Source of the DNA: Acidimicrobiaceae bacterium
Lineage (GTDB): Bacteria; Actinomycetota; Acidimicrobiia; Acidimicrobiales; Poriferisodalaceae
Direction of reading: 5' to 3'
DNA length: 64,000 nt
Assembly: GCA_002722565.1 (NCBI GenBank)
Contig: PBMG01000001.1
Coordinates: 62,001-126,000 of the forward strand
Positions 19,996 through 30,592 of this stretch are shown here, in pieces. Position 1 is the stretch's first letter. Each line of letters starts with the position of its first letter. Under the pieces are notes generated by a model, which saw only the letters and a program-made list of their open reading frames with translations, was not told the origin of the DNA and did not search any database. Both the position numbers and the translations under genes were made by a program.

Positions 19996-21414
19996 TTAGA
20001 GTCGCACATAGTCATAGTCGACTCCTTGGGTGTTGATTCCTGTTGTAGGCGGCGAAATCCAGCTCGCCATTTGGCCAGCGCCATATACCGGCTGCATTAA
20101 CGAGAGTACGAAATCTCGATCGGAATCAGTTGGCAGGAAGCTTGATGCAAGGTCATTCCATTCTTCGCGAGAAATAATGGAGCCCTCGGGAGTAACGAAC
20201 TGCTCCTGATGCACTCCTACTTGCCGGTGAAATGCTTCATGGGGGAGTTGCAGTTGAAAGTCGACTCCATTTTGGTCGAGGATCCGGTTCCATCGACGTA
20301 CACCCTTGGCGCAGTCTTCGATATAGGACCGCCTAAGTTGCTGGTTAACCACAGTTATTGCTGGTTTGGCAGTCTTGCTCCATAGGCCGTCCTTCGCCTC
20401 GATTATGAAATCCTCCTCGTCGACGAGCACGTGATCATCTTGATAGGAATCTTCGGCAAACCTTCCCTTTAATCCTGCAGAGTAATAATTAGCTGCGTTC
20501 GTTGAAGTTTCGGAGCCAAATAGGTCTAGAGAAACTGAGAAGTGAAAGTTGATGTATTTCTGAAGCGTCTCTAAATCGATCACTCCGTACCTGCGAACAT
20601 CGTCGGTGTTGTGTTCATTCATCACATCGCATGTTCGCTGAATTACGCGCCCTATGCCTGACGCACCCACAAACATATGATGAGCTTCTTCTTTCAACAT
20701 GAAGTCGCAAGTTCGACTCAACGGGTCAAAGGCTGACTCCTTCAGAGCTCCCAGCTGGTATTTGCCATCTCGGTCGGTGAAATACGTAAAGAGTAGATAT
20801 GACAGCCAGTCCGATGTCTTTTCGTTAAAGGCGCCCAAGATGCGAGGATGATCCGGGTCCCCGGAGTTTCGTTCTAGGAGAGCATCCGCTTCATCTCTGC
20901 CATCGCGGCCAAAGTAGGCGTGCAGTAGATAAACCATGGCCCAAAGATGGCGACCTTCTTCAACGTTGATCTGAAATAGATTTCTTAAGTCGTACAAGGA
21001 GGGAGCGGTCTGCCCTAGATAACGCTGTTGTTCAACCGAGGCAGGTTCGGTGTCGCCTTGCACAACAATCAAACGCCTCAGCTCGGTCCTGAACTCACCA
21101 GGCACTTCCTGCCACACCGGTTCACCTTTCAGCTCCCCAAAACCAATTCGTCGATCAGTTTCCGGCTCAGAAAGAAATATTCCCCAGCGATACTCAGGCA
21201 AAGTCACGTGAGAGAAGTGAGCCCAACCTTGTTGGCCGACATCTATTGCCGTCCGCAAATAGATTTCCTTGTCCTGAAAGCTGACCGGTCCCATCTCAGA
21301 CCACCAATTAGCAAATCGAGGTTGCCAATTCTCGAGTGCCCGTTGTAACCGCCTGTCGCTTACGAGATCAACGTTGTTCGGAATTCTCTCTGAGTAATCG
21401 ATTGGTGCGTTCAT
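19996..21414 (-). CDS. boxB: Benzoyl-CoA 2,3-epoxidase, oxygenase component BoxB
   Basis: A 472-residue diiron oxygenase that epoxidises benzoyl-CoA in the aerobic CoA-dependent (box) benzoate pathway. The start (IDYSERIPNNVDL) and DVGQQGWAHF are BoxB-like. Diiron ligand motifs are EEGRH (152-156) and EEAHH (242-246), with additional acids near 122 and 200. The C-terminal QPVYGAGQMASWISPP is also characteristic. Length matches known BoxB. ATG 21414 lies 24 bases after the boxC stop, so boxC-boxB form an operon on the minus strand. Electrons are normally supplied by BoxA, a ferredoxin/flavin reductase, which is not present in this window. Confidence 0.95.
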   Translation of the reverse strand: MNAPIDYSERIPNNVDLVSDRRLQRALENWQPRFANWWSEMGPVSFQDKEIYLRTAIDVGQQGWAHFSHVTLPEYRWGIFLSEPETDRRIGFGELKGEPVWQEVPGEFRTELRRLIVVQGDTEPASVEQQRYLGQTAPSLYDLRNLFQINVEEGRHLWAMVYLLHAYFGRDGRDEADALLERNSGDPDHPRILGAFNEKTSDWLSYLLFTYFTDRDGKYQLGALKESAFDPLSRTCDFMLKEEAHHMFVGASGIGRVIQRTCDVMNEHNTDDVRRYGVIDLETLQKYINFHFSVSLDLFGSETSTNAANYYSAGLKGRFAEDSYQDDHVLVDEEDFIIEAKDGLWSKTAKPAITVVNQQLRRSYIEDCAKGVRRWNRILDQNGVDFQLQLPHEAFHRQVGVHQEQFVTPEGSIISREEWNDLASSFLPTDSDRDFVLSLMQPVYGAGQMASWISPPTTGINTQGVDYDYVRL

Positions 21415-21438
21415 TGAGGCTTCAGTCTGCCGTTGTGG

Positions 21439-23040
21439 TTAAGTGCGTCGGTTGTCGAACTCTGCTCGACTTCCGCTGCCGTAGCGTTGAAGTGCACCGC
21501 TTGGCCCACTTGCGTTCGGTCTAGTAAATACCCAATTCTGCCAGGCAGAAAGTCGAGCGAAGATCTTTGTCGCCATAGTTTCTGGCCCAGCAAATCTTTG
21601 GTTTGCCTCCATGGCGGTTAAAGCGTCTGCTGAAAAGCTTGATCTCTCCTCAACGAAAAGGCGTAGCTCGTCATCCCAGTCTAAATCGTCCGGGGTGGCG
21701 CTCACTAACCCCAATTCCGCAGCCTGTGCGGCGAGTATCTCGGTCCCTGAGAAAGCAGCAAGGTGGGATGAAGCTTCTCGGTCACCCCAAAACCGGGAAG
21801 TCAATCTGCTGATTTCATTCCACATTGGCATGGCCCCAAAGTTAGTTTTAGTGAGTTGAATTGGAGCTGCTGGTAAAGGATTTTCATGATCCTCAAACTG
21901 TCCGTCCAGCATGAAAATGCGATCGCAAGCCAGGGCCAATTCAAAGAGAACTCCGACAAAACACGACCCAGGCTCTATCGCCGTGACCAATGTCTTGGCA
22001 GTCAAATCAAGCCGTGTTAAGCATCGCCTCCAAAGCAGTTGTATTTCGAGCTGATCGGATGTTGAAGGGTCAATTAACTCGGAATCCTGACGCACGATGT
22101 CGTCGATGGCTCCTTCTGTTCTCAAGATCAGTGTGCCCAGGTGCGGATAATCAAAGCGAAGACGGCAAAAAACATCGTCGAGTTCGAGAGCTGTTCGGAT
22201 CAACCAGTCGGAATCGGAGCCGACCAACACCTTTAGCTCTGCATGGGCTTCGAATAGGTCGACCTTTACCCAGTCGTAAATTATGTGCTCGTCAGAAATT
22301 GAAGGGTTTAGTGATGGGAGTTCAGTTGGGCTTCCCTCTAGGCGAGGGCTACCTTTCGCAAGTTCTCTAGCTCGATTTTGGGTTGCCTCATGGAATTTTG
22401 TGGGTGTCGCTAGCTCATCGATCAAGCCCCACTCGAGCGCTTCTTGTCCTGAGATACCTTCGGCTTTTGTGGCGAAAATATCTGCTCTATCTCGGCGGAT
22501 GTGCCTTTTGTCTGTGAGGCGGGTTAAGCCACCAGTTCCGGGCAGAACACCAAGCAGTGGGACTTCCGGCAATGAGATAGTGGTGCTTCGGTCGTCAACT
22601 AAAAGAATGTGATCGCAAGCGAGTGCTAGTTCGTACCCTCCTCCCGAACATGCACCGTTGACAGCAGCAAGGAACTTGATTCCGCTTAGAGTGCTCGCCT
22701 CTTCCATCTCGAGCCTTGTCTCGTTGGTGTACTTGCAGAAGTTGACTTTATGAGAGTGATCAGCAGCTGCGAGCATTCGAATGTTGGCGCCGGCACAAAA
22801 TGTTCCTTCTAGTCCGCTGGTAATCACGACACATTTCACAGATGGGCACGTAAGGCGAATATTACGGATTGCGTTTGCTAGTTCGATGTCGACGCCTATG
22901 TCGTAGCTGTTTAGTTTCAGTTCATAGGTGCCGAATGCAGAACCGGACTGATTCACGGAAAGAACCAACGTAGCTATGTCGGCGTCGATAGTTAGTTCCC
23001 AGTGCTGGAATTTGCTTGGTGGGATATCAAAACTGGTCAC
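21439..23040 (-). CDS. boxC: 2,3-epoxybenzoyl-CoA dihydrolase BoxC
   Basis: A 533-residue double-crotonase protein that opens the benzoyl-CoA epoxide ring to 3,4-dehydroadipyl-CoA semialdehyde plus formate. The N-terminal half has the CoA site FCAGANIRML (near 82) and GACSGGGYELALACD. The C-terminal half contains a second crotonase-like block, GSCFVGVLFELALACDRIFML. This double arrangement and the length are characteristic of BoxC and not of ordinary enoyl-CoA hydratases. The GTG at 23040 follows an AAGGG site. It is co-directional with boxB (24-base gap) and divergent from the benzoate-CoA ligase, sharing a 130-base promoter region. Confidence 0.93.
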   Translation of the reverse strand: MTSFDIPPSKFQHWELTIDADIATLVLSVNQSGSAFGTYELKLNSYDIGVDIELANAIRNIRLTCPSVKCVVITSGLEGTFCAGANIRMLAAADHSHKVNFCKYTNETRLEMEEASTLSGIKFLAAVNGACSGGGYELALACDHILLVDDRSTTISLPEVPLLGVLPGTGGLTRLTDKRHIRRDRADIFATKAEGISGQEALEWGLIDELATPTKFHEATQNRARELAKGSPRLEGSPTELPSLNPSISDEHIIYDWVKVDLFEAHAELKVLVGSDSDWLIRTALELDDVFCRLRFDYPHLGTLILRTEGAIDDIVRQDSELIDPSTSDQLEIQLLWRRCLTRLDLTAKTLVTAIEPGSCFVGVLFELALACDRIFMLDGQFEDHENPLPAAPIQLTKTNFGAMPMWNEISRLTSRFWGDREASSHLAAFSGTEILAAQAAELGLVSATPDDLDWDDELRLFVEERSSFSADALTAMEANQRFAGPETMATKIFARLSAWQNWVFTRPNASGPSGALQRYGSGSRAEFDNRRT

Positions 23041-23170
23041 CTTGTCACCCTTATGGAAGTGGCTTTTCCGGACATAGTGGTCAACTTGTGAGATCCCTCG
23101 TCATATTTTCGCTCCACACTCTAAAACACGTGAGAGGCTGTGACCCCATGGCTAGCAGAAGGTAATTATC

Positions 23171-24667
23171 TTGACTGGTAATGCGTTGCACCGATTCCTG
23201 ATTGACCCAGCAGCTGTTTCTCCTGATGCTGTTGCGCTCACTGATGCTCCGACTGGAGCAACTACAACCCGACAGGAACTATTAGACGAGGCACGAGATG
23301 TAGCTCGGCTGCTGCTGCATCAGGGTGTCGCAGCGGAGCAACGTATTCTGATTTGCAGCCTCGACACCAAAGCGTTCCTGGCGTGGTTTTGGGGAGCGAT
23401 GTGGATTGGTGCAATTCCTGTGCCGGTTTCGACAATGTTGACCGAAAAAGATTATCGCTTCCTGCTTGAGGACTCCCGAGCTGTCGCGCTCGCTTTTTCT
23501 CCCTCTTTCGAGCAAATTATGAAAAAAGCAGCTGCTGACCAGCCTTATCTCAAATGGTCTCGAATTGATGGCGACGTGCCGGACCTCGCTACCGAAGTTG
23601 ACCTTGGGACGCCGTTCGCGGCTGTGGATGATGACATCGCTTTTTGGTTATACACATCAGGCACAACCGGATTTCCTAAAGGCGCGATGCATCGACATAT
23701 TGATCTCGGATTTTGTACTGACGTGTATGCGAAAGCCGTATTGGGTATGGGTAGCGAGGATGTCGTGTATTCGGTTGCCAAGCTCTTCTTTGCCTACGGC
23801 CTCGGAAACGCAGGGTATTTTCCTGCGGGCACTGGCGCTCAATCGGTATTAAATCCCGGAAGGCCTATTCCCGAAGAGATCTCTGAACATGTCTTGACAT
23901 ACCACCCGACAGTTTTCTTTGGAGTTCCGACCTCTTTTGGGCAACTCCTGAGCTCTGAGATACCTGACCATACGTTTGAGTCAGTGAGAATTGCCGTTTC
24001 TGCAGGAGAGCCACTGCCGCCAGATATCCACCAGAGATTCCGAGAACGTTTCGGTGTTGAAATCTTGGATGGCCTAGGTACGACTGAACTAGCTCATATA
24101 GCTATCTCTAATAGGCCCGGGTCTTCGGTACCGGGGACGAGCGGGACTGTCGTTGAAGGATATGAAGTATCACTCCGCGACGAAAACGGCGTCGAGGTTC
24201 CAGACGGAGAACCTGGAAAGCTTTACGTTAAGGGTGAATCGGTGATGGTCGGCTATTGGAACCGTACTGATCGAACACGCCAGGCCTTAGAAGGTCCGTT
24301 TCTCGCGACAGGTGACACGTACGTGCATAACCTCGACGACACTTACACCTGTTTGGGTAGATCAGATGACATGTTGAAGGTCGGAGGCATCTGGGTTAGC
24401 CCAACCGAAGTCGAGTCGTGCATTCTCGAACTGCCGGAGATCTCCCAGGTAGCGGTGGTGGGAGATGAGGATCGAGAAGGACTAGTGAAGCCAAAGGCCT
24501 ATGTGGTTTTGGAAAGTCCGGTAAACCACGTAGACGTGGAATCTTTGGTCAAGGAGCATGTGAAAGAGCGCTTAGCTCCTTTCAAGTATCCCAGATGGGT
24601 TCAGGTCGTTGACGAACTTCCCCAAACTGCAACTGGGAAAATAAAACGCTACTTGCTGCGCTCTTAG
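23171..24667 (+). CDS. bclA: Benzoate-CoA ligase
   Basis: A 498-residue AMP-forming acid-CoA ligase of the benzoate/4-hydroxybenzoate type. It activates benzoate with ATP and CoA before BoxB acts. The P-loop-like motif YTSGTTGFPKG is at 161-171; the A8 hinge region is CLGRSDDMLKVGGIWVSP and the catalytic Lys is in TATGKIKRYLL near the end. The benzoate-type features are the short N-terminus, KLFFAYGLGN and the conserved GGIWVSPxEVE. The start is TTG 23171 with an AGAAGG site eight bases upstream. It is divergent from boxC-boxB, which supports the assignment. It overlaps the stop of the esterase gene by four bases. Confidence 0.9.
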   Translation: MTGNALHRFLIDPAAVSPDAVALTDAPTGATTTRQELLDEARDVARLLLHQGVAAEQRILICSLDTKAFLAWFWGAMWIGAIPVPVSTMLTEKDYRFLLEDSRAVALAFSPSFEQIMKKAAADQPYLKWSRIDGDVPDLATEVDLGTPFAAVDDDIAFWLYTSGTTGFPKGAMHRHIDLGFCTDVYAKAVLGMGSEDVVYSVAKLFFAYGLGNAGYFPAGTGAQSVLNPGRPIPEEISEHVLTYHPTVFFGVPTSFGQLLSSEIPDHTFESVRIAVSAGEPLPPDIHQRFRERFGVEILDGLGTTELAHIAISNRPGSSVPGTSGTVVEGYEVSLRDENGVEVPDGEPGKLYVKGESVMVGYWNRTDRTRQALEGPFLATGDTYVHNLDDTYTCLGRSDDMLKVGGIWVSPTEVESCILELPEISQVAVVGDEDREGLVKPKAYVVLESPVNHVDVESLVKEHVKERLAPFKYPRWVQVVDELPQTATGKIKRYLLRS

Positions 24668-26196
24668 ACGTTTTGTGATGGGCCCCAGGCTCGAGCGATA
24701 CTTCGGGGTAACTCTTCTATCCATTGGATGAGATCGTGGCCACATACCCGTTCGGTGAAGTGGTGAGGGGATGAGTGGAAATGAAGCCAAGCAGCCCAAG
24801 CCTCGGTTGCCTGGTGGAAACCTTGTTCTAAAGTTCCGGCACAAAGATGGACGAACGGAGCTCCCTCTGGATCCCATTTCATCTGTTCGCTGGGCGGCAT
24901 GCCGGTCGAGTAGGCGATGCAGTGGCCGTACCGATGACTGTGCATTGATCCCGTTGCCAATGCGTGACCGCCACCATCAGAACAACCGAAAATGGCCCGA
25001 AACTCTCTGTTGCTGGATGCGGAGAACTCATTTTCGGCCCATTCTGAGATTTCGTCAACGAAAAATCGTTGATGACGGTCGAAACGTTGATCGTCGAACC
25101 CCGGTAAATACTCGAGTGCGCGCTCGTTGCCTCTGTGATCCATTGGCGCCGCGTGGGGAGCAACAATCACTAGCGGGCCAATAACCCCAGTCGTGATGGC
25201 AGCATCGATGCGACGAATGTATGGCTCGATCATGTTTCCATCTGTTGCATAGACGACGGGAAGTTCTGAATGTTGGTCGTGGCCAGGGGGTAGATAAACC
25301 TTCACTCGTCGATTCTCACGTAAGGCCACGCTCGTGAACTCGTGTGTGGATAGCGAGCCTTCTAAAGCGTCGTCCTCGTGACTTGGAAGTTCTTCGGGAG
25401 CGAGCTTTCCTCGGTAACGGTTGTTCACCGGACCCCTTCCTCCAATAGGCATACCGTTGAGATCCAGAGGCCAAAATCCATACCCGAAAACGGCCTCGTC
25501 GAGTCGATCGACACGGATTTGAACGCACCAAAGATCGGACATAGTGCCATCGTCTTCTTCGACGTTCCACATCGGAAGCTCGAATACTGGCCCCGGAATA
25601 AGGCCAGATGCCTCTGACCGGCACGCGAGAGTGAGATCGTTGCCATCCGACCACGCGCCGTCAGGGAACTGCGCTAGGCCCTGGCGAATCTCTCCAGGAC
25701 TCGGATCTGACCAGATTCGACAAAATTTCTGTCCCTGAGGCAGATTTTGTTCCTCGTACCGACTTTTAGCTAATGACTTATTTTGCTGGTCAACGTTCAT
25801 TCTCATCTCCGTCAGAGACGGTAAGCCGAATGAGCGGCGGGTTTCGTCGTCAGCGACACCATCGAGCGGGGCCATCACCAAATCACCTTGATGTTCTAGG
25901 ATGACTGTTCCAAATCGTTGGGGGCGCCCACTCATGAGAGAGACTTTGTCGGCACACTCGGCGAACAAAGATCCGGAGCCAGGGACACCGGCTTGGTGAG
26001 CTCGCCCAGCAAGTTCGCCAGCTATCGGCAATTGTTGAGGTCCCGCAAAGATGGTTAAAGCTCGAGCCGCACGTAGAGCGTCCGTGCCTTGTAGGTCCAT
26101 CAGGTCTTCTTCCTGAAGTAACTGGCGGACAAAAAATGGAGCGCTATCGGGATCGGCTCCCTCTAGATGGGTTAGTAGGTCACCGATAGCACTCAC
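24664..26196 (-). CDS. Multidomain esterase: DUF6624-like N-terminus plus enterochelin-esterase-like hydrolase
   Basis: A 510-residue protein in three parts. Residues 1-150 resemble DUF6624 (short helices, then GRPQRFGTV and RRSFGLPSLTEM). Residues about 165-275 look like the beta-sandwich N-domain of enterochelin esterases. Residues about 285-510 form an esterase-D-type alpha/beta hydrolase (YLPPG, VVYATDGN, nucleophile in IFGCSDGGG, catalytic His in VCGHDLIQW). It probably hydrolyses an ester or peptide-like bond in a polar metabolite. No signal peptide was seen. The GTG at 26196 has a strong GGGAGG site. A divergent promoter region with a perfect inverted repeat lies between it and the crotonase at 26331. 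Confidence 0.75.
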   Translation of the reverse strand: MSAIGDLLTHLEGADPDSAPFFVRQLLQEEDLMDLQGTDALRAARALTIFAGPQQLPIAGELAGRAHQAGVPGSGSLFAECADKVSLMSGRPQRFGTVILEHQGDLVMAPLDGVADDETRRSFGLPSLTEMRMNVDQQNKSLAKSRYEEQNLPQGQKFCRIWSDPSPGEIRQGLAQFPDGAWSDGNDLTLACRSEASGLIPGPVFELPMWNVEEDDGTMSDLWCVQIRVDRLDEAVFGYGFWPLDLNGMPIGGRGPVNNRYRGKLAPEELPSHEDDALEGSLSTHEFTSVALRENRRVKVYLPPGHDQHSELPVVYATDGNMIEPYIRRIDAAITTGVIGPLVIVAPHAAPMDHRGNERALEYLPGFDDQRFDRHQRFFVDEISEWAENEFSASSNREFRAIFGCSDGGGHALATGSMHSHRYGHCIAYSTGMPPSEQMKWDPEGAPFVHLCAGTLEQGFHQATEAWAAWLHFHSSPHHFTERVCGHDLIQWIEELPRSIARAWGPSQNV

Positions 26197-26246
26197 GTTG
26201 CCTCCCTGGGGTCTCTTTAGAGTACTCCTCGATTTGAGGCGCTTTT

Positions 26247-26269
26247 CTTTGCTTAAAGATTAAGCAAAG
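26247..26269. promoter_or_regulatory. Perfect 10-bp inverted repeat between divergent genes
   Basis: CTTTGCTTAA, a three-base spacer AGA, then TTAAGCAAAG. The two arms are exact complements. It lies about 50-60 bases from each divergent start, as expected for a TetR- or FadR-type operator; it could also be a hairpin. No regulator gene is next to it. Confidence 0.6.
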
Positions 26270-26330
26270 TGATGTCAACCCCCATTGGGTTGTAGCGTCA
26301 ACGGTTATAGCTAACTGAAGAGGAGATGTC

Positions 26331-27107
26331 GTGTCTGAAGAACTCGTGATAACAGAAAAGCGTGGCCATATTCAGGTTCTAACTTTGAACCGTCCCGAGG
26401 ACATGAATGCGTTTAACACCGCGTTAGCGAGCGCCCTGGGAGAGGCGTTGGAGGCTATGGACAGCGACACAGATATCCGGGTTGGTGTGTTGACAGGAGC
26501 TGGCCGAGGCTTCAGTGCTGGAATGGATCTAAAGCAGTTCGCTGATGGCGGCATTGACGCCATGCCAAATGTTGGTGAGCGCGGGTTTGCAGGTATTACT
26601 GAAAAGAGTTGCGCGAAGCCCCTAATTGCTGCTGTTGAAGGCTTTGCCTTGGCAGGAGGTCTCGAAGTTGCTCTTTCGTGCGACTTAATAGTTGCTTCCG
26701 AAGGCGCGAAACTAGGTATCCCAGAAGCTGGGGTTGGACTATTCGCTGGTGCTGGGGCATTACTGCGCTTGCCGCGTCAACTGCCGTACAGCCTGGCTAT
26801 GGAGATGGCACTCACCGCCGATCCAATTTCTGCCGAAGTAGCGCACCAGCATGGGATGGTGAATCGGGTAGTACCTAAAGGCGAGACCTTGGCTGCTGCT
26901 CTTGAACTAGCGGAAAGAATCTCAAAAAACGCTCCAATGGGAGTAAGGGCCTCGAAACAGCTGATTAAAGACGTCCTTGGCGTTTCTGAAGAAGCATTCT
27001 GGTCTTTCCAAAGACCGGCCTTAGAGGAAGTCTTTGCCTCGGAAGATGCCTTCGAGGGAGCGACAGCCTTCGCCGAAAAGCGTGACCCTAATTGGCAAGA
27101 TAAATAG
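26331..27107 (+). CDS. Enoyl-CoA hydratase/isomerase
   Basis: A 258-residue crotonase. Both catalytic glutamates of classical enoyl-CoA hydratases are kept: in GGLEVALSCD (near 112) and GIPEAGVGL (near 131). The CoA and oxyanion segment is FSAGMDLKQF. The C-terminal region is normal. It should hydrate 2-trans-enoyl-CoA or isomerise it in beta-oxidation. The GTG at 26331 has an excellent GAGGAGA site. It is followed after eight bases by a methyltransferase gene and preceded by the inverted repeat described separately. Confidence 0.9.
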   Translation: MSEELVITEKRGHIQVLTLNRPEDMNAFNTALASALGEALEAMDSDTDIRVGVLTGAGRGFSAGMDLKQFADGGIDAMPNVGERGFAGITEKSCAKPLIAAVEGFALAGGLEVALSCDLIVASEGAKLGIPEAGVGLFAGAGALLRLPRQLPYSLAMEMALTADPISAEVAHQHGMVNRVVPKGETLAAALELAERISKNAPMGVRASKQLIKDVLGVSEEAFWSFQRPALEEVFASEDAFEGATAFAEKRDPNWQDK

Positions 27108-27115
27108 GTTTTTCC

Positions 27116-27691
27116 TTGTCCCAAAGCAAATGGAGTGATCAAAAAAATATTCCAAGGGGTTCAAGCTACGATGCGCGTTGGGAGCAGCTAGCAAGCTCTG
27201 GTGAGAACGTTCATGGTGAAGCTGACTTCATCTCGCAATTGAACCCCTCTTCCGTACTTGACGCTGGTTGCGGTACCGGTCGAGTAGCGATCGAGCTTGT
27301 ACGACGAGGTATCGACTCAGTTGGTGTGGACCTAGACCCCGAGATGTTGCAGGCCGCTCGTCGGAAGGCACCGACTCTCGAATGGGTCGAAGCTGACCTT
27401 CAAAAGTTCACTCTTGAGAGACGTTTTGACGTGGCTGTTTTGGCTGGAAATGTCATGATTTTCGTTCTTCCCGGGTCTGAAGAACGGGTTGTTGAACAGA
27501 TCACCCAACACCTTTGCGAGGGTGGACTTTTTGTATCCGGATTCACACTCGACACCGACGGCATTCACCTTGACGAATATGACGAAACGATGCAACGCCT
27601 AGGACTTTTGTCTGCTGGAAGGTGGAGCACATGGCAAAAGGACCCATTTACCGGCGGCAAATATGCAGTGTCGGCTCACCGAAAAATTTAG
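27116..27691 (+). CDS. Class I SAM-dependent methyltransferase
   Basis: A 191-residue methyltransferase. The SAM motif I is VLDAGCGTGRVAIEL (near 49-63), followed by GVDLDPEML (acidic loop contacting the ribose) and EADLQKF. It has a short C-terminus with no added domain. The substrate cannot be read. The TTG at 27116 is the only good start before motif I in frame. It begins eight bases after the crotonase stop, so the two are likely co-transcribed. Confidence 0.8.
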   Translation: MSQSKWSDQKNIPRGSSYDARWEQLASSGENVHGEADFISQLNPSSVLDAGCGTGRVAIELVRRGIDSVGVDLDPEMLQAARRKAPTLEWVEADLQKFTLERRFDVAVLAGNVMIFVLPGSEERVVEQITQHLCEGGLFVSGFTLDTDGIHLDEYDETMQRLGLLSAGRWSTWQKDPFTGGKYAVSAHRKI

Positions 27692-28207: not shown

Positions 28208-28960
28208 GTGTCTGAATACAGCGAAATAGTTTTAACGAAATCTGGTCATACAGCAACCGTGACAATGAATCGCCCCGACGCTCTTAACGCCATCACTCCG
28301 ACAATGCTTGAGGAGCTGAATGATGCCGTTCTGAAAGTCGAAGAAGACCAGGAAATTCGATTCGTCGTGTTGACCGGTGAAGGACGAGCCTTTAGCGGAG
28401 GAGTCGATTTGAAGGCCTTAGGAGAACGAGAGCTCCTTAACGGCAAGGTTGGGGACATTCTGGATTTGCCTGCACGGGCATTAACAGGGCGACTTTCCTC
28501 AATGCCTAAAGTAACTATCGCCAAAGTCAACGGGTTTTGCTTTACCGGTGCGCTAGAGATCGCTATGTCTTGTGACCTAATCGTCGTTGCAGACGAAGCA
28601 CGTCTAGGTGACACTCATGCGAAATTCGGTCTTCGCCCAACATGGGGCCTGAGCCAACGTTTGCCAGCACTCGTGGGTATGGCCCGGGCTAAAGAACTGT
28701 CATTCTCAGCGCGGACCTTTGATGGCGTTGAAGCACGAATGTGGGGACTGGCTGCGCTGGGCGGACCCCTTGAAGAGCTAGACAACTTGGTTACCTCAAC
28801 CATTGAGAAGATGGCGGCAAACTCGAGTGAATCTTTTGTCGCGTACAAGGATTTATACGCGGCAACTGAACGTCTTAGCGCTGACCAAGGCCTCGTCTAT
28901 GAGGCCGAGTCCGACTACTCGTTTACCGATACAGGAGAAAGGCTGGCGGACTTCCGGTAA
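28208..28960 (+). CDS. Crotonase-family protein with altered second catalytic residue
   Basis: A 250-residue crotonase. The oxyanion segment FSGGVDLKAL and GALEIAMSCD (first Glu) are intact, but the second Glu loop reads GDTHAKFGLRPTWG, the same replacement as in the crotonase at 10752-11504. These two proteins form a subfamily distinct from the gene at 26331. The GTG at 28208 starts the frame; the upstream 200 bases contain no other gene and probably hold the promoter. It converges with the acyl-CoA ligase gene (three-base gap). The reaction is not certain: the missing Glu speaks against simple hydration. Confidence 0.83.
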   Translation: MSEYSEIVLTKSGHTATVTMNRPDALNAITPTMLEELNDAVLKVEEDQEIRFVVLTGEGRAFSGGVDLKALGERELLNGKVGDILDLPARALTGRLSSMPKVTIAKVNGFCFTGALEIAMSCDLIVVADEARLGDTHAKFGLRPTWGLSQRLPALVGMARAKELSFSARTFDGVEARMWGLAALGGPLEELDNLVTSTIEKMAANSSESFVAYKDLYAATERLSADQGLVYEAESDYSFTDTGERLADFR

Positions 28961-28963
28961 GTG

Positions 28964-30592
28964 TCAATCGGGCCAGCTGAAGTCCGCAAATCGTTCCCTC
29001 AGTACTTTCTTGTCAATCTTTCCGGTTCCGGTGTGTGGAATCTCGTCGATTGCTACCACGTCGTTGGGTAACCACCACGACGCCACATGCGGCTTTATAG
29101 ATTCAAGAATTTCATTGGAGTTCAGGTCTTTGCCTTGATCCAAAACGACAACGAGAAGTGGACGTTCTCCCCAACGATCGTGAGGTAAACCAACGGCGGC
29201 AGCTTCCGCCACTCCTGGTGCACCAACGGCAGCATTTTCGAGTTCGATGGAGCTGATCCATTCGCCGCCGCTTTTAATTACGTCTTTTGCGCGGTCAACG
29301 ATTGATATGTAACCCTCGCTGTCCATCGTCGCCACGTCTCCTGTCCTCAACCAAACTCCGTCGGGTCCAGAGATGTGGGTGGAATCATCTTCTAATCCGA
29401 AGTATGAGCCTGCGACCCATGGTCCGCGAGCAAGCAATTCCCCTGGAGTGACTCCATCACGTTCAACGTCGTTTCCGTCGCCGTCAATGAGGCGAAGTTC
29501 GACCCCGTAGAGCTCTCGACCTGCCATAGCCTGGCGACGCCTTTTCTCTTCACGATCCAGACGCGAGACCTTGTGTGTGAATCTGCCGGCCGAACCTTGG
29601 GTCATCTCGGTCATTCCCCAAACGTGGGACACAAAAACCTCATAATCGTCTTCCAACGTGTCCATCAACGAGCGTGGTGCAGCTGACCCGCCTACAGCGA
29701 GACGGTTGAGGGAGGGCACATCAGCTCCGGTTTCCTGTAAATGTTGAACGACTGAGAGCCAGATGGTTGGAACCCCAGCAGAGAATGTCACATTCTCTTC
29801 CTGTATCTGTCGAACGATTGACTCAGGAGACATGTCAGGTCCAGGCAAAACCAGTTTTGCTCCCGCCATCGCCGCAGCGAAGGGAATCGCCCAGCCGTTG
29901 ACATGGAACATTGGGACAGCCAGCAATATCGACTGACTTGAGTTGACGTCGTGGCCGTCACCCGTGCAGGTTGCCCATGTCTGCAGAACTATGGACCGGT
30001 GGCTCTGCATAACCCCTTTGGGGTTACCGGTGGTTCCTGAGGTGTAACACAGAGTGGCGGCGCTCCACTCGTCCAAGATAGGCCACTCCTCAATTGGAGG
30101 AGTTTCTGCAATCCACTTTTCGTAGGCGACCACATTTTCTAGAGAAGTTTCGGGCACCTCGTCAGCCAGGATTACCCAAGCACGGACTGAAGGAGTTTCT
30201 TGAGCGATTTCCTCTGCTACTGAGAGAAAGTCAGGGTCAAGAAAAACTATTTTGTCTTCTGCGTGATTGATGATCCAAGCGATTTGTTGCTCGCGTAGGC
30301 GAGGGTTCACAGTGTGTAAGACCGAACCAATACCTGTTATCCCGTAGTAGGCCTCTAAATGGCGGTGATCGTTCCATCCGATAGTGCCGACTCTGTCACC
30401 TTGGTCGATTCCAGCTGCTCGTAGTGCACCCGAGACTCGTTGTGATCGTTGATGAACTTCTGCCCAATCAGTTCTATGGACCTGGCCAGTAGAGTCGGTC
30501 GCCACAACTTCAGTGTTGGAGTGATTGCGACCTGCGTATTCGATCAAGCTCGAAATCAAGAGCTGGCGATCCATGTTCAATCCACGAAGCAT
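28964..30592 (-). CDS. Fatty-acid/acid-CoA ligase (AMP-forming)
   Basis: A 542-residue ANL-superfamily ligase. The phosphate-binding motif is [16 protein letters not shown] (near residue 180). Also visible are VPMFHVNGW, the adenine motif HVWGMTE, the hinge [15 protein letters not shown], and the Lys-bearing [11 protein letters not shown] close to the end. This pattern fits medium/long-chain acyl-CoA ligases of the AlkK/FadD type. The ATG at 30592 follows a GAGGA site and lies nine bases after the stop of the epoxide hydrolase gene; ATG 30574 is the alternative. It is the third gene of the minus-strand run typA, epoxide hydrolase, ligase. Confidence 0.88.

Follow-up and report, generated by a model that had tools for sequence, protein, structure and literature searches.

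Organization of the locus

The window (the whole 64-kb stretch of DNA analysed here) contains two divergently oriented genes separated by a gap of 134 nt. On the minus strand an open reading frame at 24664–26196 encodes a protein of 510 aa carrying an esterase domain (PF00756) in its C-terminal half, which matches the NCBIfam model for enterochelin esterase with a score far under the cut-off. On the plus strand a crotonase/enoyl-CoA hydratase family protein of 258 aa (PF00378, ECH_1) is encoded at 26331–27107; it scores above the cut-off of the NCBIfam subfamily PRK08252, and its closest solved structures are those of EchA1. Each gene is preceded by a ribosome-binding site that is conserved in the alignment described below, GGAGGC for the esterase (26200–26205, minus strand) and AGGAG for the crotonase (26321–26325, plus strand). 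At a distance of 8 nt the crotonase gene is followed by a gene for a SAM-dependent methyltransferase (27116–27691, plus strand, PF13649), which adjoins the crotonase gene at 28 of the 30 fetched loci and is probably transcribed with it in one operon.

The gap between the divergent starts houses a perfect inverted repeat of 23 bases, CTTTGCTTAA-AGA-TTAAGCAAAG, at 26247–26269 with its centre at 26258. Its arms (26247–26256 and 26260–26269) comprise 10 bp each and are 100% complementary around the 3-base spacer AGA. An earlier note on this DNA had described exactly such a pair of arms between divergent esterase and crotonase genes, and inspection of the sequence and of the reading frames bears out both points. 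With regard to its perfect arms, its retention in relatives and its uniqueness in the genome we treated the dyad, which belongs to neither strand, as a candidate shared operator.

Adjoining the divergent pair, positions 19996–24667 carry genes of the aerobic benzoyl-CoA pathway, namely for BoxB, a BoxC-like protein and benzoate-CoA ligase. BoxB and the ligase score above their NCBIfam cut-offs and BoxC reaches 650 bits, under its cut-off of 712. These box genes are kept in most relatives whose fetched stretch extends that far.

For comparison, the crotonase was searched in 61 genomes (our own, G000, and 60 relatives), and crotonase relatives were found in all 61. Thirty loci were fetched, and in 28 of them the esterase is divergent from the crotonase with the methyltransferase downstream. 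Nineteen intergenic regions were aligned; nine loci of genus g5 (L033–L041), whose starts are uncertain, were excluded, as were two others (L042, L043) that have no esterase. The genus itself is represented by eight genomes in the set, the eighth of which (G002, 65% complete) yielded no orthologue (best E 7.8e-58). In the seven others the intergenic region is exactly 134 nt long.

Predicted promoter geometry

A scan for consensus sigma70 promoters returned none between the two starts, which fits weak -35 elements. Promoters were inferred from the alignment, with -10 patterns that were picked post hoc. The predicted esterase -10 box is TACTCT (TANNCT; 26219–26224, minus strand), read as AGNNTA on the plus strand. 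It recurs in 18 of 19 intergenic regions at a fixed distance to the start codon, and five of its six columns are invariant in the genus. The predicted crotonase -10 box, TAGCGT (TANNNT; 26293–26298, plus strand), is likewise found in 18 of 19 aligned regions, in the form TA[GA]C[GT]T. The pair is absent in a single region (L032). We take the TANNNT boxes to represent the actinobacterial -10 pattern, and they would serve as the -10 elements of both promoters.

With a spacer of 17 nt the esterase -35 position would be occupied by GAAAAG (26242–26247, minus strand), and the crotonase -35 position by TGATGT (26270–26275, plus strand; spacer of 17) or by GTGATG (spacer of 18). Both are poor matches to TTGACA. 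Conserved letters were observed at both places: the block around GCTTTTC at the esterase -35 position is almost invariant within the genus, and GTGAT or ATGAT at the crotonase -35 position is mostly conserved across genera. With 17-nt spacers the palindrome takes up the whole space between the two -35 positions.

The two -10 boxes are separated by 68 bp in the seven congeners and in genus g2, by 66–67 bp in the sister genus g7, and by 71 bp in five genomes of g4 with 60 bp in the sixth. Their midpoint, 26258.5, practically coincides with the dyad centre. The dyad lies between divergent starts and has both predicted promoters in reach, as would an operator that two such promoters share. The proposal that one symmetric site is common to the two starts is supported in that the gene pair occurs in 28 of 30 loci and the -10 boxes in 18 of 19.

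Two other arrangements can be judged from this geometry. According to Warman et al. (PMC12825309), bidirectional promoters of E. coli have one common -10 element and starts that are commonly 10–23 bp apart, and separate divergent promoters do not count as bidirectional. The present locus resembles them in its symmetry-related divergent transcription, but its predicted -10 boxes lie 68 bp apart, which does not fit a bidirectional promoter with a shared -10 element under that definition.

A leader element or terminator, formed as an RNA hairpin by transcription that begins upstream of the dyad, is highly improbable. The 10-bp stem does fold, with z values of -2.2 on one strand and -2.3 on the other, but transcription of both genes leads away from the dyad, which should not be transcribed at all because the conserved -10 boxes sit outside it. 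Furthermore, no T run follows the stem. An intrinsic terminator was ruled out by the terminator scan, which lists none at the dyad, and a riboswitch by the lack of any Rfam match there.

Occurrence by chance and conservation of the inverted repeat

The dyad at 26247–26269 is the only perfect one in the window with arms of at least 10 bases and a spacer of 0–10. Markov simulation of 100 windows of 64 kb gave at least one such dyad in 38 of them (mean 0.73), so that its mere existence is unremarkable. When one mismatch per 11 positions was allowed, four centres in the window tied in score at 10 of 11 symmetric positions, that at 26258 among them. Consequently, the dyad alone is weak evidence, and place and conservation have to carry the argument. 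With respect to place, simulated versions of the intergenic region contained a perfect dyad in 22 of 20,000 cases (2 of 5000 in an earlier run), and none of the 22 was located within 1 nt of the midpoint between the -10 boxes. A shorter perfect dyad, AGAGAATGTCACATTCTCT (19 bp, positions 29780–29798), lies within an acyl-CoA ligase gene of the window.

With respect to conservation, G003 retains 20 of 20 arm bases with the spacer ACA instead of AGA, and in G005 19 of 20 arm bases are identical to our own sequence; outside the palindrome 88 of 111 intergenic positions are identical to our own in each of them. Together with G000 these two form a clade (clade A; support 0.989, tree of three concatenated proteins). 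This conservation of both arms in two further species, as read from the aligned letters, is the strongest support for the dyad. The gap-free alignment of the seven congeners shows no variation in 15 of the 23 columns of the palindrome, compared with 3 of 15 and 4 of 15 columns between the -35 and -10 positions on the two sides. The palindrome is narrower than the conserved block in this alignment.

The other four congeners (clade B: G001, G004, G006, G007) carry a degenerate form with the same centre and 5–6 of 11 symmetric positions. Compared with our own sequence they keep 15–16 of 20 arm bases and 68–73 of the remaining 111. Elsewhere the number of symmetric positions is 6, 5, 4 and 3 in the sister genus g7, 4 in g2 and 0–4 in six genomes of g4. 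At orthologous loci the dyad is perfect or near-perfect in three of seven congeners, partial in four of seven and absent from other genera. Two of these observations count against a shared operator: in clade B the left arm has G for C and the right arm shows no compensating change, and the dyad is strong in three species only, although clade B, g7, g2 and g4 keep the genes and the -10 boxes. The earlier note had taken the lack of a further copy in the genome and in related strains as grounds to abandon its proposal; this outcome did not arise, since relatives do keep the dyad, albeit at the same locus only.

The distribution just described bears on the possibility that the region is conserved for promoter reasons and became symmetric by chance, the symmetry being shared in one clade by descent. 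We give this account a low, though not negligible, probability. Comparable dyads in the simulated windows and the four tied centres are in line with it, as is the failure of the symmetry to be maintained across the genus. The flanks are conserved in clade A too, 23-column windows with a start index of 50 to 57 tying at 21 invariant columns. It is opposed by the rarity of perfect dyads in the intergenic simulations, with none at the -10 midpoint, and by the arms having been kept despite the long protein branches of clade A (0.08–0.11).

Downstream, at 28208–28960 on the plus strand, the window contains a second crotonase gene. It is present in clade A, in G008 of g2 and in G012 of g6, and tblastn gave no good orthologue at that place in clade B (four genomes), g7 (four) and g4 (six). 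Within the genus its presence coincides with that of the perfect palindrome, which amounts to a single phylogenetic split.

Search for further copies of the motif

In line with a proposal of the earlier note, the genome was scanned for the same palindrome; no second copy was detected in our own genome with up to 3 mismatches in the 20 specified bases, and the symmetric variant GTTTAANNNTTAAAC occurred in none of seven genomes. A relaxed pattern (TTGCTTAANNNTTAAGCAA-like, 16 bases, 3 mismatches) returned 4, 8 and 8 sites in the clade A genomes, and the reversed pattern used as control returned more, 17, 21 and 15. Relative to the reversed pattern, TTGCTTAANNNTTAAGCAA-like sites are thus depleted about two- to fourfold in G000, G003 and G005, perhaps owing to an avoidance of TTAAGC-type words.

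The relaxed matches with a locus, as well as G003:C31, were inspected. For L128 the contig coordinate was taken as the locus coordinate, and the printed letters agree. Three matches recur in G000, G003 and G005 within an 815-aa reading frame, where they correspond to the codons for AYHLTKRG, and were therefore dismissed as a coding coincidence; the match G000:C1:14019 was discarded as well, lying also within a reading frame. Ten more loci were inspected, nine of which overlap an open reading frame of at least 100 aa; L124 has no open reading frame of at least 150 aa nearby.

Across the order a match with up to 2 mismatches was found in 10 of 397 genomes, compared with about 7 genomes with a match to the reversed control. 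The eight order-wide sites besides those of G000 and G003 were not retained, their neighbours being unrelated genes; two of them are situated inside genes and one overlaps a 134-aa open reading frame on the opposite strand. A literature search with the motif letters gave no evidently related work among the matches listed, as judged from their titles.

Search for a regulator

Among 59 proteins of the window, a set without shorter and overlapping reading frames, Pfam assigned no regulator DNA-binding domain. In our own genome (94.5% complete) the TetR_N domain gave seven hits, one of them a duplicate since L142 and L143 are identical stretches; within about 1.5 kb of these hits the best agreement with the motif of the dyad was 12 of 18 positions. 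FadR belongs to the GntR family, whose domain (PF00392) was found nowhere in this genome, the controls matching in 12 of 14 cases. Similarly, the cNMP-binding domain (PF00027, CRP/FNR-type) gave no hit in our own genome, with the controls matching in 10 of 14. MarR_2 (PF12802) gave three hits, two of them above cut-off, and near these PF12802 loci the best agreement with the dyad was again 12 of 18 positions.

From these searches we conclude that the proposed regulator is absent from the scanned window proteins and is not of the GntR or CRP/FNR type, unless its gene falls in the portion that the assembly lacks. A MarR-family protein may act on the dyad from a distance. The earlier note had assigned the dyad to a TetR/FadR-type operator and expected a TetR gene with a matching site. 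With no GntR hit in the genome, no matching motif near its TetR hits, no regulator domain in the 59 scanned window proteins and no second copy at up to 3 mismatches, this label is unsupported, and the first reading of the dyad as a TetR/FadR-type shared operator can be regarded as partly supported: a symmetric site shared by the two divergent promoters is supported, with the palindrome in two of six other congeneric orthologues, and the assignment to TetR or FadR is not.

Two of the TetR loci themselves carry palindromes. An 18-bp palindrome, ACTTACCAAATGGTAAGT, is located directly upstream of the TetR gene of L142 and L143, which are two 3132-nt stretches on contigs C12 and C22 with the same gene and identical scan results, perhaps an assembly duplicate. 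Another, AGAGACAAATGTCTCT (L145, 1681–1696, contig C5), is located directly upstream of a further TetR-type gene and is likely its autoregulatory operator. These putative TetR operators of the same genome resemble the dyad under study in being short, perfect and intergenic, but they are of the ACTTACC and AGAGACA types, unlike CTTTGCTTAA, and each adjoins its own regulator gene.

That neither a regulator nor a second site was found would also agree with a symmetry of another origin, in which the dyad is a shared A+T-rich, UP-like element bound by the alpha subunits of RNA polymerase with no regulator involved. Each promoter would select the same A+T-rich upstream sequence, which becomes symmetric when read both ways. 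The two -35 positions flank the dyad directly on either side, A or T make up 16 of its 23 bases compared with 54% A+T in the intergenic region, and each arm ends in AAGCAAAG beside a -35 position. A weaker constraint on symmetry would furthermore account for the less symmetric forms seen in clade B and g7. The perfect 10-bp complementarity, including the G/C positions, in G000 and G003 exceeds what A+T-richness needs, and we consider such an element unlikely. The stronger statement that RNA polymerase and not a regulator made the symmetry, two promoters locked at 68 bp sharing an upstream element that selection from either side made a perfect palindrome in one clade, appears improbable to us.

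Discussion

On balance we slightly favor the view that one homodimeric DNA-binding protein uses the dyad as a cis-regulatory site common to both genes, situated midway between back-to-back promoters. Against this view count, besides the restriction of the strong dyad to three species, the negative searches for a regulator gene among the 59 window proteins and for a second copy in our own genome, and the post hoc choice of the -10 patterns. Transcription would start near 26212 on the minus strand and near 26305 on the plus strand, which would place the dyad centre near -46/-47 relative to both predicted starts. A dimer bound there could contact both polymerases and would thereby set the expression of the esterase and of the crotonase-methyltransferase unit jointly. 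An activator is somewhat favored over a repressor, given two poor -35 hexamers and a site located upstream of each; place and poor -35 elements thus speak mildly against a classical TetR repressor. In assigning this meaning to the place of the dyad we presume that the positions of class II activators apply.

Divergent regions of the tetR/tetA type likewise have one dyad between divergent starts that is able to affect both promoters. The present locus differs from them in that neither target is the regulator gene, and in that the dyad is located upstream of both -35 positions and not over a -10 element or a start.

The dyad is an ordinary kind of element. If the proposed reading is true, it would provide a small regulatory unit open to testing, next to a benzoate (box) gene cluster in marine Acidimicrobiia known mainly via metagenomes, and an example of a regulator that has one clear target. 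The constant distance between the promoters would furthermore make the locus a clean system for the role of a site equidistant from two promoters.
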